Shown one piece after another: positions 14,720-20,588 of a stretch of DNA of 64,000 nt. The stretch lies in assembly GCA_021463145.1 (NCBI GenBank), contig JAJTWZ010000001.1:1-64000 (forward strand), in the 5' to 3' direction. Positions within the stretch are counted from its first letter, which is position 1; each line of letters begins with the position of its first letter. Below the pieces are notes generated by a model. That model saw only the letters and a list, made by a program, of their open reading frames with translations, had not been told where the DNA came from and made no database searches. Origin of the DNA: Blastocatellia bacterium (GTDB taxonomy: Bacteria > Acidobacteriota > Blastocatellia > UBA7656 > JADIYM01). Made by a program: the position numbers and the translations under genes.

Positions 14720-15472
14720 CTATGCAGCGCGGTCGAGCATGCAACCGCGGAGGCGAGCCACAGCTTTCGTGTGGATCTGCGAAACTCGAGACTCGTTGAC
14801 GCCAAGTACGCTGCCAATCTCCTTCATCGTCAACTCGTCGACGTAGTAGAGAGAGATGACCAGCCGCTCCTTCTCCGGAAGCGCTTCGACGGCATCCGCC
14901 AACTGCTGCCGCGCTTCTTCGCGCTCGTAAGTCGTGAACGGATTGAACTCTGGCGAAGCCGGAAGGGACTGAATCGGATCGATCACAGGCGAGCCGTCCG
15001 CGTCGTCACCCAGGTGAAGGCTCGCGAGCTGAACAGAATTGATCTCGTTGACGAGGCCGTGAAGCTCGTCGATGCCAATCTCCAGGAACGCGGCCACCTC
15101 GACATCCTCGACGGAACGGCCGTGTTCGCGCTGCAGTGTAGAGTGAGCCGCCTGCAACTCCCGCGCGCGGCGGCGAAGACTGCGCGGCGCCCAATCGAGA
15201 CTGCGAAGGTGATCGAGGATGGCACCGCGGATTCGCCGTTCGGCATACGTGCGGAATCGAATGCCACGTGTCGGATCGAACTTGTCGGCCGCATCGATGA
15301 GCCCGATCGTGCCGGCGCCGATGAGGTCGTCGACCTCGATGCTCGACGGCAGCTTGCTGCAGACCCGGCCCGCCAGGAACCGAACCAGGCTCAAGTGGTC
15401 CTCGATCAGCGAATCGCGATTGAAGTTCTCGAAGATGAAGGGCGCTTCGATTGGAATGTATGCAGTAGCCAT
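14720..15472 (-). CDS. FliA/WhiG-type sigma-70 family factor
   Basis: 250 aa. Region 2 is seen in LVRFLAGRVCSKLPSSIEVDDLIGAGTIGLIDAADKFDPTRGIRFRTYAERRIRGAILDHLRSLDW, region 3 in residues 100-145, and region 4 in LPEKERLVISLYYVDELTMKEIGSVLGVNESRVSQIHTKAVARLR. The DxRGIRFxTYAxRRIRGAI pattern is typical of the sigma-28 (FliA/WhiG) group, which directs flagellar or developmental genes. No flagellar genes are in the window. Its 500-bp upstream region holds a sigma-54-type promoter and paired palindromes, so this factor may be the second tier of a sigma-54 cascade. A good terminator follows. Confidence 0.9.
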   Translation of the reverse strand: MATAYIPIEAPFIFENFNRDSLIEDHLSLVRFLAGRVCSKLPSSIEVDDLIGAGTIGLIDAADKFDPTRGIRFRTYAERRIRGAILDHLRSLDWAPRSLRRRARELQAAHSTLQREHGRSVEDVEVAAFLEIGIDELHGLVNEINSVQLASLHLGDDADGSPVIDPIQSLPASPEFNPFTTYEREEARQQLADAVEALPEKERLVISLYYVDELTMKEIGSVLGVNESRVSQIHTKAVARLRGCMLDRAA

Positions 15473-16240: not shown

Positions 16241-16977
16241 AAGCTAAACATTCTGAGTGTCGTATTCCGGAGCGCCTTTTCCTGGCTGTTCCAATCGAGG
16301 GCCTGTTCGACGTCCTGGATGACGGACTTGCACCGATCCGATTGCATTGCTCCGAGAAGGCCGCTCGAAAGGCCACGGACATCCGTCGACCGGCAATCCT
16401 GACCGTGTTGGCCTGGGAAGCCGCGGCCCAGGGTCACGAATTCGAAGCAGACGGTGATGGATGGCGCGTCACGGCGGCGCTTCCGCACCACCTGCTTGCG
16501 TGCGATGACCGTCGCGCGCTCGCGAAACTGCGCGTCAAGGGCAGACAATCCTGCGGTGGCATCCTGATCAGCAATCTGGAGGACCCACGCGTGCTGCTGC
16601 TCTTCAAGGAAAAACCTGGCTTCACGGCCTGGAAGTTGCCGAAGGGCGGATTGGAGGATGGAGAGTCGCGCCGACAGGCGGCCAGGCGTGAGGTCGCCGA
16701 GGAGGCCGGAATCCGGCGGGTGCGGGTGCTCGGCAAGGTAGGGATGATTCAATACTTCAAGCAGGGCAAGAAGGGCCGGCGACGTGAAAAGACCGTCGAC
16801 CTCTTTCTCATGCTCAGCCGGGACGGCGAATGCAACATTGCGCCGCGCAAAGGAGAGTCGTTCGTCGCGTGCGCCTGGTTGACTTTCGAGGAAGCAATCG
16901 CCCGCGTCACCCAACCCGAAGCACGCGGTTCCATCGCCCGCGCCCGGGCGCTGACTCAACGACTGAACAAGCGCTGA
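16237..16977 (+). CDS. ART-like (KptA/Tpt1-related) domain fused to Nudix hydrolase
   Basis: 246 aa. The Nudix box is complete: GGLEDGESRRQAARREVAEEAGI (about residues 140-162, GX5EX7REUXEEXGU), within a domain from about residue 105 to 235. Residues 12-90 align by eye with the C-terminal ADP-ribosyltransferase lobe of RNA 2'-phosphotransferase (KptA/Tpt1): LFDVLDDGL with FLDEIKKQGL, CSEKAARKA with SADEATARKVG, RRPAILTVLAWEAAAQGHEF with GSPVILTVKAQEMAKRGIPF, and a final GDGWRVTAALPHHLL. The NAD-binding HGT of KptA is replaced (FLAVP), so transferase activity is doubtful. GTG start overlaps the upstream stop. Substrate unknown; a nucleotide, capped RNA or ADP-ribose-type ligand is inference. 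Confidence 0.8.
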   Translation: MKAKHSECRIPERLFLAVPIEGLFDVLDDGLAPIRLHCSEKAARKATDIRRPAILTVLAWEAAAQGHEFEADGDGWRVTAALPHHLLACDDRRALAKLRVKGRQSCGGILISNLEDPRVLLLFKEKPGFTAWKLPKGGLEDGESRRQAARREVAEEAGIRRVRVLGKVGMIQYFKQGKKGRRREKTVDLFLMLSRDGECNIAPRKGESFVACAWLTFEEAIARVTQPEARGSIARARALTQRLNKR

Positions 16978-16999
16978 CCTCGCCTGCAATCGGAATTCG

Positions 17000-17032
17000 A
17001 AAAAGGCCACCCTCGACTGCTCGAAGGTGGCC
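17000..17032 (-). terminator. Rho-independent terminator of the candidate RNA
   Basis: Minus strand GGCCACC-TTCGA-GCAG-TCGAG-GGTGGCC followed by TTTTTC. Strong hairpin with a U tract. On the plus strand the tail after the hairpin (CTCTTTC) is weaker but it may also stop the Nudix transcript. Confidence 0.85.
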
Positions 17033-17246
17033 TCTTTCACGACGCGATGGAGAACCGCTCAACCGTGTCGGGACTGGATTTTGAACCTATCCAAGATAAG
17101 TGGGCGGCATATCAACTGGCGTTCGGAGTCCCCGACCTAAGTGGGGATGCACTGTCCAGATATCGCTACGCCTCCCGTCTCGTATAGCGTTGGTTCAAAA
17201 TTTTCAACCCCGGTGGAACCACGAATCTCGCAGTGAATCCGCCGCG
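17000..17246 (-). ncRNA. Probable structured small RNA, 6S RNA-like
   Basis: Between two convergent genes the minus strand has a sigma-70-like promoter (TTGACC-N17-TAGTCT, 17281-17253), a start near 17246, no ORF, and a rho-independent terminator at 17032-17000. A long-range stem pairs ATTTTGAACC (17192-17201 region, read on minus) with GGTTCAAAAT (17087-17078), 10 perfect pairs plus two G-U. Inside it are ATATC/GATAT with GGCG/CGCC, and a TCCCC/GGGGA hairpin. A rod with internal bubbles of about 125-245 nt is the shape of 6S RNA, the RNA polymerase regulator; the family call is tentative. Confidence 0.5.
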
Positions 17247-17252
17247 AAACGA

Positions 17253-17281
17253 AGACTAGCCGCCACTGGAACAGCGGTCAA
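17253..17281 (-). promoter_or_regulatory. Sigma-70-like promoter of the candidate RNA
   Basis: Minus strand TTGACC (17281-17276), 17-bp spacer, TAGTCT (17258-17253). No coding region follows before the terminator. Confidence 0.55.
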
Positions 17282-17376
17282 GCTCATTCTCTAAGTAACT
17301 GTGTCTAATGACTTTCGGGCGATTTACGGAGTGAATGAAGCGTACGGATTCATCGCCACGCAAAAGTCCGTGTTCG

Positions 17377-18480
17377 CTATGACTTGCGGAGCGCCGCCTT
17401 CAAAACAAGGCTCAGAATCCGGCCTTCGTCGTCGGATCTGAAGGCTATACGGACCGCGTAAAGAGGCAGGGCGACCGGATCGAATCGCTCTAGTTTGACT
17501 GCGTCCTTCTCGGTGGTGAGAAGCGCCTCGGCGCCTGACGAAATGGCCGAAGCCGCGGCAGCGGCGAGGTCCTCTCGGGAGTATGGGTGATGATCGCGAT
17601 GCGCACTCTCGGAAACAACCTGCATTCCAATGTTCCGAAGGTCTTCCGTGAACAGGACCGGGTTTCCGATGGCCGTCAGGACGCCGACCTTTCGGCCGCG
17701 CAATGTCTGGGGATCTCGCAACTCGCCGCCGAACACGGGCCTGAGCGCGTCGATGTCGTGCCATGAATGAAATATCGGGATGTCAGGCCGGCAGGTTCCC
17801 CTGACGACGCGCTCGATCGCCGACTCGTCGAAGGGACGGTCCGAGCGGGTCACGATCACGGCATCGGCGCGCTTCATTCCCTGCAATGGCTCGCGGAGCC
17901 GCCCCACCGGGGGCATCCGCAGACATCCAAACGGATCGGTGGCATCGAGGACCAGCAGGTTCAGATCACGCGCCAGCTGCAAGTGCTGAAAGCCGTCGTC
18001 TAGGACGAAGACTTCGGTACCCAACTCGAGCGCGGCCCAGGACGCTGCCTTCGCACGGTCCGGGTCCACGACTATCGGCACGCCGTCGAGTTCACGCGCC
18101 AGCATCGCGGGCTCGTCTCCGGCGCGATCCGCGTCGTTCGTCGCCCTGGGTTCGTCACGGGCGCCCAGCACGACCCGCTCTTTCGACTGCCGGCCGTAAC
18201 CGCGCGTGAGCACAGCGCATTCGTACCCCTGGTCGCGCAGCACCCGGACAATGTGGGCGACAATCGGGGTCTTCCCCGTTCCGCCTAAAGTCAGATTCCC
18301 GACGCTGATGACAGGCCGATCGAGGCGGACCTGTGACAGATAGCCGGTCTCGTATGCCACTCCACGGACCAGCGCGCCGAACTCGGCAATGCGCACGAAT
18401 GGACCGAGCATGCGCGCCAACGGGCCTGGCGAACCCCCTGGCCGCATCCCCGATTCGAGCCGCTCGCGAATTCCGGTCAC
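17377..18480 (-). CDS. lpxK: Tetraacyldisaccharide 4'-kinase
   Basis: 367 aa. The P-loop is in ISVGNLTLGGTGKTP (about residues 58-72), followed by LTRGYGR, GDEPAMLAREL, VVDPDRAKA, and VLDDGFQHLQLARDLNLLVLDA, all LpxK hallmarks. It phosphorylates the 4' position of the lipid A disaccharide at the inner membrane using ATP. The N-terminal 40 residues carry the amphipathic membrane-associated helix. GTG start overlaps the waaA stop by 4 bp, so Kdo transfer and lipid A phosphorylation are co-translated. Confidence 0.94.
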   Translation of the reverse strand: MTGIRERLESGMRPGGSPGPLARMLGPFVRIAEFGALVRGVAYETGYLSQVRLDRPVISVGNLTLGGTGKTPIVAHIVRVLRDQGYECAVLTRGYGRQSKERVVLGARDEPRATNDADRAGDEPAMLARELDGVPIVVDPDRAKAASWAALELGTEVFVLDDGFQHLQLARDLNLLVLDATDPFGCLRMPPVGRLREPLQGMKRADAVIVTRSDRPFDESAIERVVRGTCRPDIPIFHSWHDIDALRPVFGGELRDPQTLRGRKVGVLTAIGNPVLFTEDLRNIGMQVVSESAHRDHHPYSREDLAAAAASAISSGAEALLTTEKDAVKLERFDPVALPLYAVRIAFRSDDEGRILSLVLKAALRKS

Positions 18481-19799
18481 GTGCGTGGGTCCGACGAATC
18501 GATGAGCCCTCGAATGACGGCAATCGTTCGCATCGTAGAGCCCCGATTGGCGTCGAGCACAGCCGCGGCACTGGCGCCGAGCAGCCTGCGTCGCTTCTCG
18601 TCGGTCAGCAGTGACTCGAACGCTCGCGCCAGTCCGTTGGCGTTTGCATCGGCGTGGTCGAGCTGAACGACCGCGCCGGCGGCCAGAAAATCGCTAACCA
18701 CCTGGCGGAAGTTCTCCGTGTGAGGTCCGACTACGATTGGGCGGCCGAAGAGCGCGGGTTCGAGGATACTGTGGCCGCCTCTTGGAACGAGGCTGCCGCC
18801 AACGAAAGCGACGGTCGCGAAAGAATATGCGGCCGCGAGCTCGCCAATCGAATCGAGCAGCAGAATGGCGGCATCGTTTGCCGGAAATTGAGAACCGGCA
18901 TCCGAGCGGCGGACGAAGCCAAGGCCCGACGCCGCCAGGAGGCGCGCAACCTCGTCGAACCGCTCGGGATGGCGCGGCGCGATCATCATCCGAGTGTCGC
19001 CCAATCCTACGCGTCCACGAAGCTCTTTGAGCGCATCGATCAGCATCGCTTCTTCTGCGGGCCCTGTCGAACCGGCCACGATCAACGGCCGCTCGTCGTC
19101 AAGAGCGAAGATGCTGGCGAGATCCGACCGCCGAGAGGCCGTGCGAGCCTGAAAGTCGGCAATGTTCAGGTCGTACTTCATGTTCCCCGTCACGGACACT
19201 CGCGTGGGGTCGGCGCCGAGCGACTTCATCCGATCCGCGTCGGCGGCCGATTGCATGAGGAACCGGGCAACGGCAGCGAGCACTCCGCGCAGAATCCACC
19301 GCAGCCGCGCATAGCCACGATAGGAATTGTCGGAAAGCCGTCCGTTGACGATTGCAACAGGCACGCGACGCTTGCGGCACGCGGCAAGCACGTTCGGCCA
19401 GATCTCGGTCTCGACAAGACAAAGCACGCCTGGACCGATTCGACTCATCGCCCGCGAGACCGGCCCTGGCAGGTCGATAGGAAAGTAGAAGACGTCGAGG
19501 TCCGGAAACCGGTCTCGCGCGACCTTCTGGCCGGTTGCCGTTGTCGTTGAAACCGCCACGCGCCAGTTCGGGAAGGCGGTGACGGCCTCACGCACGAACT
19601 GCTCGACCGCGACGACCTCGCCGACCGAAACGGCGTGAATCCATAGGGTCGGCTTCTTCGATGGCCTGATGTTCGGAGCGCCGAGTCGTTCGGACAGGCT
19701 GCCGATGTACTTCCGATGGCGAATCGCCCGAAATACGAGCACCGGCGCCATTAGGAACAGGCCGACAACCAGAAGAACGGTGTAGACGGCGCGAAACAC
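18477..19799 (-). CDS. waaA: Kdo transferase (lipid IVA 3-deoxy-D-manno-octulosonic acid transferase)
   Basis: 440 aa, GT-B fold. It starts with a membrane anchor (VYTVLLVVGLFLMAPVLVF), then RKYIGSLSERLG, LWIHAVSVGEV with the catalytic-region motif, STTTATGQKVA, PIDLPGPVSRAM, VETEIWPNVLAACRKRRVPVAIVNGRLSDNSYRGY, and the C-terminal VGGSLVPRGGHSILEPALFGRPIVVGPHTENF. It adds Kdo from CMP-Kdo to lipid IVA. GTG start. How many Kdo residues it adds cannot be told. lpxK follows with a 4-bp overlap, and efp lies 63 bp upstream on the same strand. Confidence 0.94.
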   Translation of the reverse strand: MFRAVYTVLLVVGLFLMAPVLVFRAIRHRKYIGSLSERLGAPNIRPSKKPTLWIHAVSVGEVVAVEQFVREAVTAFPNWRVAVSTTTATGQKVARDRFPDLDVFYFPIDLPGPVSRAMSRIGPGVLCLVETEIWPNVLAACRKRRVPVAIVNGRLSDNSYRGYARLRWILRGVLAAVARFLMQSAADADRMKSLGADPTRVSVTGNMKYDLNIADFQARTASRRSDLASIFALDDERPLIVAGSTGPAEEAMLIDALKELRGRVGLGDTRMMIAPRHPERFDEVARLLAASGLGFVRRSDAGSQFPANDAAILLLDSIGELAAAYSFATVAFVGGSLVPRGGHSILEPALFGRPIVVGPHTENFRQVVSDFLAAGAVVQLDHADANANGLARAFESLLTDEKRRRLLGASAAAVLDANRGSTMRTIAVIRGLIDSSDPRT

Positions 19800-19862
19800 G
19801 CGATTGGCCGGAATACTCGGACGTCGGCGAGTCTCGATGGCGGCTCGCGGGACCTAGTGGCG

Positions 19863-20420
19863 CTATTTAGCCCGCTCGAGGTATCGCCCTTCGTTCGGGT
19901 CGACGCGAATGACGTCGCCCTGTTTTACGAACGGCGGAACCATAACGGTTACGCCAGTGGACAGCTTGGCGGGCTTGTTCGAGTTAGAAGCGGTCGCTCC
20001 CTTGAGTTCGGGCTCGGTCTCGACAACCTCGAGCTCGATAACGGGTGGAAGCTCGATTCCGATCGGGCTACCGTCGAAAAACTCCACTTGAATCTTCAGG
20101 CTCTCGGTCAGGTAGCCCACGGCGTCTCCGAGCTGTTCGGCATTGAGACCGATCTGCTCGTACGACTCGGTATTCATGAAGTAGTAAAAGTCGCCGTCGG
20201 AGTACAGATACTCCATATCGTGCTGCTCGAGCGTGGCCCGTTCGACACTCTCGGTAGCGCTGAACCGAGTCTCCATGCTGGTTCCAGTCTTCAGGCCGCG
20301 CAGTTTGCACTGAACGAACGCTCGAAGGTTGCCGGGGGTGCGGTGCTGGAAGTCCAGCACGCGGTATGGCTCACCGTTGTAGATGATGATGTGTCCCCGG
20401 CGGATCGCATTCGCGTTCAT
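19863..20420 (-). CDS. efp: Translation elongation factor P
   Basis: 185 aa from ATG 20420 (MNANAIRRGHIIIYNGEPYRVL); the 32 upstream residues of the ORF-track frame are not EF-P like. The three OB-type domains are present: KOW-like domain I, central domain (RATLEQHDMEYLYSDGDFYYFMN), and the C-terminal STGVTVMVPPFVKQGDVIRVDPNEGRYLERAK signature. EF-P rescues ribosomes at polyproline. The domain I loop reads RTPGNLRA (residues 27-34), where most EF-Ps have PGKG with a modified lysine; here Asn-31 occupies that position and Arg-33 is nearby, so the usual EpmA-type lysylation target is absent. Confidence 0.95.
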   Translation of the reverse strand: MNANAIRRGHIIIYNGEPYRVLDFQHRTPGNLRAFVQCKLRGLKTGTSMETRFSATESVERATLEQHDMEYLYSDGDFYYFMNTESYEQIGLNAEQLGDAVGYLTESLKIQVEFFDGSPIGIELPPVIELEVVETEPELKGATASNSNKPAKLSTGVTVMVPPFVKQGDVIRVDPNEGRYLERAK

Positions 20421-20588
20421 GAAAAAAGTACCTCGTCGGAATGTCGTCAGCTTCAGCCGTGCTCGAAAGCAGCCGTGGAGGATACGCGCCGGGCGTTGGT
20501 TGGTCAAGGCAGGCAACGCCAGGCCGAGTCCGTCGAATCCTCATCTCGAAACGGATCGAAAAGGGCGCCACCATGCCGGCTGGCCAAC

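Follow-up and report, generated by a model that had tools for sequence, protein, structure and literature searches.

Within the 64,000-nucleotide stretch of Blastocatellia DNA analysed here (the window), a NUDIX-domain gene (Pfam PF00293) on the plus strand ends at position 16977 and lpxK on the minus strand ends at 17377. Both genes converge on a putative 6S RNA gene on the minus strand (Table 1), which adjoins an efp-kdtA-lpxK cluster (region 16977–20430). The best matches of LpxK are mostly Chloracidobacterium and Blastocatellia records, and by this protein affinity the genome was assigned to Acidobacteriota, class Blastocatellia. An initial annotation of this region had described convergent flanking genes and, between them, a series of structured elements on the minus strand, and all of these were found where they had been placed. 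None of 200 dinucleotide shuffles folds as well as the minus strand (z = -4.96). The plus strand folds well too, if more weakly (z = -3.28), which is to be expected for the complement of the minus strand. A coding reading was rejected; only short mechanical ORFs of about 31–84 aa overlap the RNA. Elsewhere on the minus strand, at 14720–15472, a 250-aa ORF resembles a FliA/WhiG-type alternative sigma factor, as judged by eye from its translation.

Table 1. Features of the 6S RNA locus, with positions in the window
Feature	Positions	Strand	Remarks
Promoter TTGACC-N17-TAGTCT	17253–17281	-	TTGACC 17281–17276, TAGTCT 17258–17253; 13 bases upstream of the model start
6S RNA	17048–17239	-	RF00013 positions 1–187
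Closing stem, 5' strand	17225–17233	-	pairs with 17055–17063; alignment columns 7–15 with 216–225
Closing stem, 3' strand	17055–17063	-	pairs with 17225–17233
P2, 5' strand ATTTTGAACC	17192–17201	-	predicted pRNA template; 10 pairs with 17078–17087
P2, 3' strand GGTTCAAAAT	17078–17087	-	pairs with 17192–17201
Predicted pRNA start, template C, pRNA 5'-GUUGGUUCAAAAUU	17189	-	presumed from its place as third base past the conserved CC
3' central-bubble hairpin ACUUAUC-UUG-GAUAGGU	17085–17101	-	exclusive with P2; covaries in relatives
Distal arm, 5' strand GGGAGGCGTA	17167–17176	-	pairs with 17102–17111 in predicted fold
Distal arm, 3' strand TATGCCGCCC	17102–17111	-	pairs with 17167–17176 in predicted fold
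Terminal hairpin TCCCC...GGGGA	17129–17147	-	predicted fold
Intrinsic terminator	17000–17032	-	12-bp stem 17032–17005, GCAG loop, TTTTT 17004–17000; from sequence and predicted fold

6S RNA, a well-known small RNA, mimics an open promoter and thereby holds RNA polymerase in check. A divergent 6S RNA had already been guessed at this locus. When positions 16950 to 17400 were scanned against all 4227 Rfam families, a match to the 6S model RF00013 was obtained that covers the model in full length (43.2 bits, E = 1.5e-7). The match is 3.2 bits short of the curated Rfam gathering score of 46.4 bits, which is an annotation convention and no defining biological feature of 6S RNA, and 36 of the 128 genomes of the class with a 6S match also score below this value. 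Further families appearing at E values up to 10 had scores far under their own cut-offs and fell mostly on the terminator. A search of the whole genome (5.28 Mb) with RF00013 returned the same single match (E = 4.3e-7). At default thresholds, no Rfam family is reported in the 64-kb stretch, and routine annotation would therefore miss this RNA. We conclude that the minus strand at 17239–17048 almost certainly encodes the organism's only 6S RNA (ssrS), one that is ordinary in kind. Both its sequence and its structure identify it as a genuine 6S RNA.

DNA similarity to the region was found in none of 38 other genomes of the class, and relatives therefore had to be identified via structure. Together with the score below the gathering score, this finding would be in accordance with a small structured RNA of this lineage that is unrelated to 6S and only 6S-like in its helices. 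However, near-invariant 6S blocks occur in the same order in relatives that score up to 24 bits over the cut-off, and the genome contains no other 6S candidate; we regard an unrelated RNA as very improbable. Among 162 genomes of the class, 128 yielded one 6S match each, and 92 of these were over the cut-off. In a sample of the phylum, 199 of 297 genomes had a match, with scores of up to 117 bits. These counts indicate that 6S RNA is common in Acidobacteriota and that the copy described here is among the more divergent ones. The earlier statement that 6S RNA is often missed in these phyla is at odds with the sample, as 176 of the 297 genomes exceed the Rfam cut-off. In addition, a covariance model for the class (R1) was built from an alignment of 25 class relatives (A2) which excluded the sequence studied here. 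In a search of the genome, R1 recovered the 6S gene with 72.5 bits (E = 8.7e-17), the runner-up reaching 16 bits (E = 0.18). Since the relatives had themselves been found with RF00013, R1 tests kinship with these relatives and not 6S identity anew. A divergent acidobacterium thereby gains a 6S annotation that is missed by standard Rfam cut-offs and easily found by a model from a class alignment.

An inverted repeat of 10 bp without mismatches is formed by ATTTTGAACC and GGTTCAAAAT, which are separated by 104 nt and have a mean pair probability of 0.98 in the predicted ensemble. This repeat had been taken for the closing stem of the RNA. The repeat itself is real, but it corresponds to P2, beside the central bubble, with the actual closing stem further out. 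Enclosed by P2 are the GGCG/CGCC and TCCCC/GGGGA helices, and in the predicted fold of the RNA on its own the distal arm is formed by GGGAGGCGUA with UAUGCCGCCC.

Conservation of these helices was assessed in an alignment of 27 sequences (A1), the present one among them; its row seems to be about one column out of register in the distal arm, and the terminal arm is poorly aligned. For closing stem, distal arm and 3' hairpin combined, 95.5% of the cells in A1 were paired, compared to 29–47% when the structure was slid by 1–3 columns, and 33 cells were doubly changed compared to a shuffled mean of 9.6. With P2 in place of the 3' hairpin, 90.6% of the cells were paired and 42 were doubly changed (shuffled mean 15.6). 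As the shuffles ignore relatedness, these values represent strong indications of covariation and no formal probabilities. Compensatory changes across homologues were present in the closing stem (both-sided at columns 13/218 and 14/217), in P2 (four pairs changed on both sides), in the 3' bubble hairpin (100% of cells paired) and in the helix equivalent to the distal arm. Pairs that are G-C and C-G in relatives are A-U and U-G in the present RNA, so that its hairpin stays paired. For the local hairpin GGTT...AACC, proposed in the 5' part, no corresponding repeat could be seen in the relatives. With the terminal part of the arm excluded, compensatory change in A1 conserves closing stem, central bubble and distal arm. 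Sequence and covariation support a rod-shaped RNA in which these three elements and the promoter are conserved.

The predicted promoter matches the consensus at only 8 of 12 positions and is absent from the calls of a pattern scan, though its position is conserved. Upstream of the 6S RNA, almost all of 20 relatives have TTGACC or a close variant of it, followed by a spacer of 15–19 bases and a TAnnnT-like hexamer, and the element ends 9–16 bases ahead of the model start. In one relative (G009, L119), the best-scoring hexamers are out of pattern. By its position, the promoter would start transcription near 17246. Being present in single copy with a promoter of its own, the 6S RNA appears from sequence to be an independent small-RNA gene. 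The terminator with its T tract, also part of the initial annotation, is strong, yet it was missed by the pattern scan. No equivalent was obvious by eye downstream of the 6S RNA in the relatives.

In beta- and gamma-proteobacteria, ssrS is preceded by zapA (PMC7641849). Likewise, zapA is located upstream of the 6S RNA in relatives belonging to several families (L116, L122, L124 and L132). A gene for a TIGR00282 metallophosphoesterase is located downstream in L116, L122 and L132, and ORFs of similar size occupy this place in others. In the genome studied here, zapA is located on another contig (C86), and a search for TIGR00282 (ymdB-like) genes, positive in control genomes, detected none. The Nudix/lpxK synteny is not conserved in the relatives, except that in two members of another family (L129 and L130) the 6S RNA is found beside kdtA and efp, and in L129 beside lpxK as well, with a gene order opposite to that observed here. 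A simple reading would be that the 6S gene moved away from its customary neighbours and is equipped with a terminator of its own. A location outside the zapA neighbourhood and a sequence divergent for the class might also point to a 6S gene in decay that has lost its function. However, paired changes maintain the helices, P2 pairs perfectly over 10 bp, neither promoter nor terminator is damaged, and the gene is the sole copy. Decay is therefore highly unlikely.

The predicted pRNA start is a pyrimidine in 24 of the 27 sequences. We take position 17189 to correspond to U44 of E. coli 6S RNA. U44 is cited as the start of the E. coli pRNA in PMC8876501. The GGU of GGUUCAA belongs to both P2 and the 3' hairpin, which are mutually exclusive, and the alignment supports the view that both are conserved. 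A switch involving the long-range stem had been suggested earlier: covariation indicates that P2 does have an exclusive partner, but this is the 3' bubble hairpin and not the one in the 5' part. In silico, the mean probabilities in the free RNAs were 0.50 for P2 and 0.46 for the hairpin; occupation of nine template bases changed them to 0.02 and 0.93, respectively. For the free RNA of the present organism, P2 was predicted to be dominant (0.98). The hairpin was predicted at 0.42–0.49 with a pRNA started at 17189 (0.42 for a 9-nt pRNA) and at 0.96 with a 9-mer started at 17187. With values of only 0.42–0.49 for a start at 17189, the release step is less certain here than in the relatives.

In 6S RNAs of E. 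coli and other gamma-proteobacteria, a hairpin of the 3' bubble can form once P2 has opened, and it takes part in release (PMC8876501; SAXS study PMC10406553). The gamma-proteobacterial mechanism is known from experiments. By analogy with known 6S RNAs, the central bubble would imitate an open promoter and occupy RNA polymerase that carries the main sigma factor. With plentiful nucleotides, the polymerase would use the 5' strand of P2 as template and begin a short pRNA at or near 17189. Synthesis of the pRNA would free the 3' strand, upon which the 3' bubble hairpin could close and help to eject the RNA. For the order of these release events, E. coli serves as the model. It is conceivable, at somewhat less than an even chance, that acidobacterial 6S RNAs are released by such a switch, similar to that of E. 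coli, with a near-invariant ACCUGU/ACAGGU 3'-bubble hairpin taking the place of P2 on pRNA synthesis. If true, this would suggest that the switch is older than the gamma-proteobacteria. Our literature search found no 6S experiments for Acidobacteriota, the main survey of 6S distribution being outside its reach; the covarying, mutually exclusive helices make the release mechanism testable in this phylum.

The RNA resembles E. coli-type 6S RNA (SsrS, RF00013) in its full-length match to the model, the rod with central bubble, the UUGAACC-type 5' strand and GGUUCAA 3' strand of P2, the 3' bubble hairpin exclusive with P2 and, in its relatives, the neighbouring zapA. It differs in its score under the Rfam cut-off, its own intrinsic terminator, its own locus beside lpxK and the hairpin sequence CUUAUC/GAUAGG. 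6S-1 of B. subtilis likewise has a rod, a central bubble, a pRNA template and a small 3' bubble hairpin, which are predicted features here. In 6S-1, the hairpin is already formed in the free RNA and pairing with the 5' bubble in a collapse helix is part of release (PMC8876501), whereas the free RNA here is predicted to contain P2 and no hairpin. 6S-Flavo (RF01685) and Ms1 are also 6S-related or 6S-like RNAs. RF01685 gave no match in the scan of 16950–17400, even at E = 10. Ms1, an actinobacterial RNA which according to PMC9130861 binds core RNA polymerase, would be set apart from the RNA studied here by this description.
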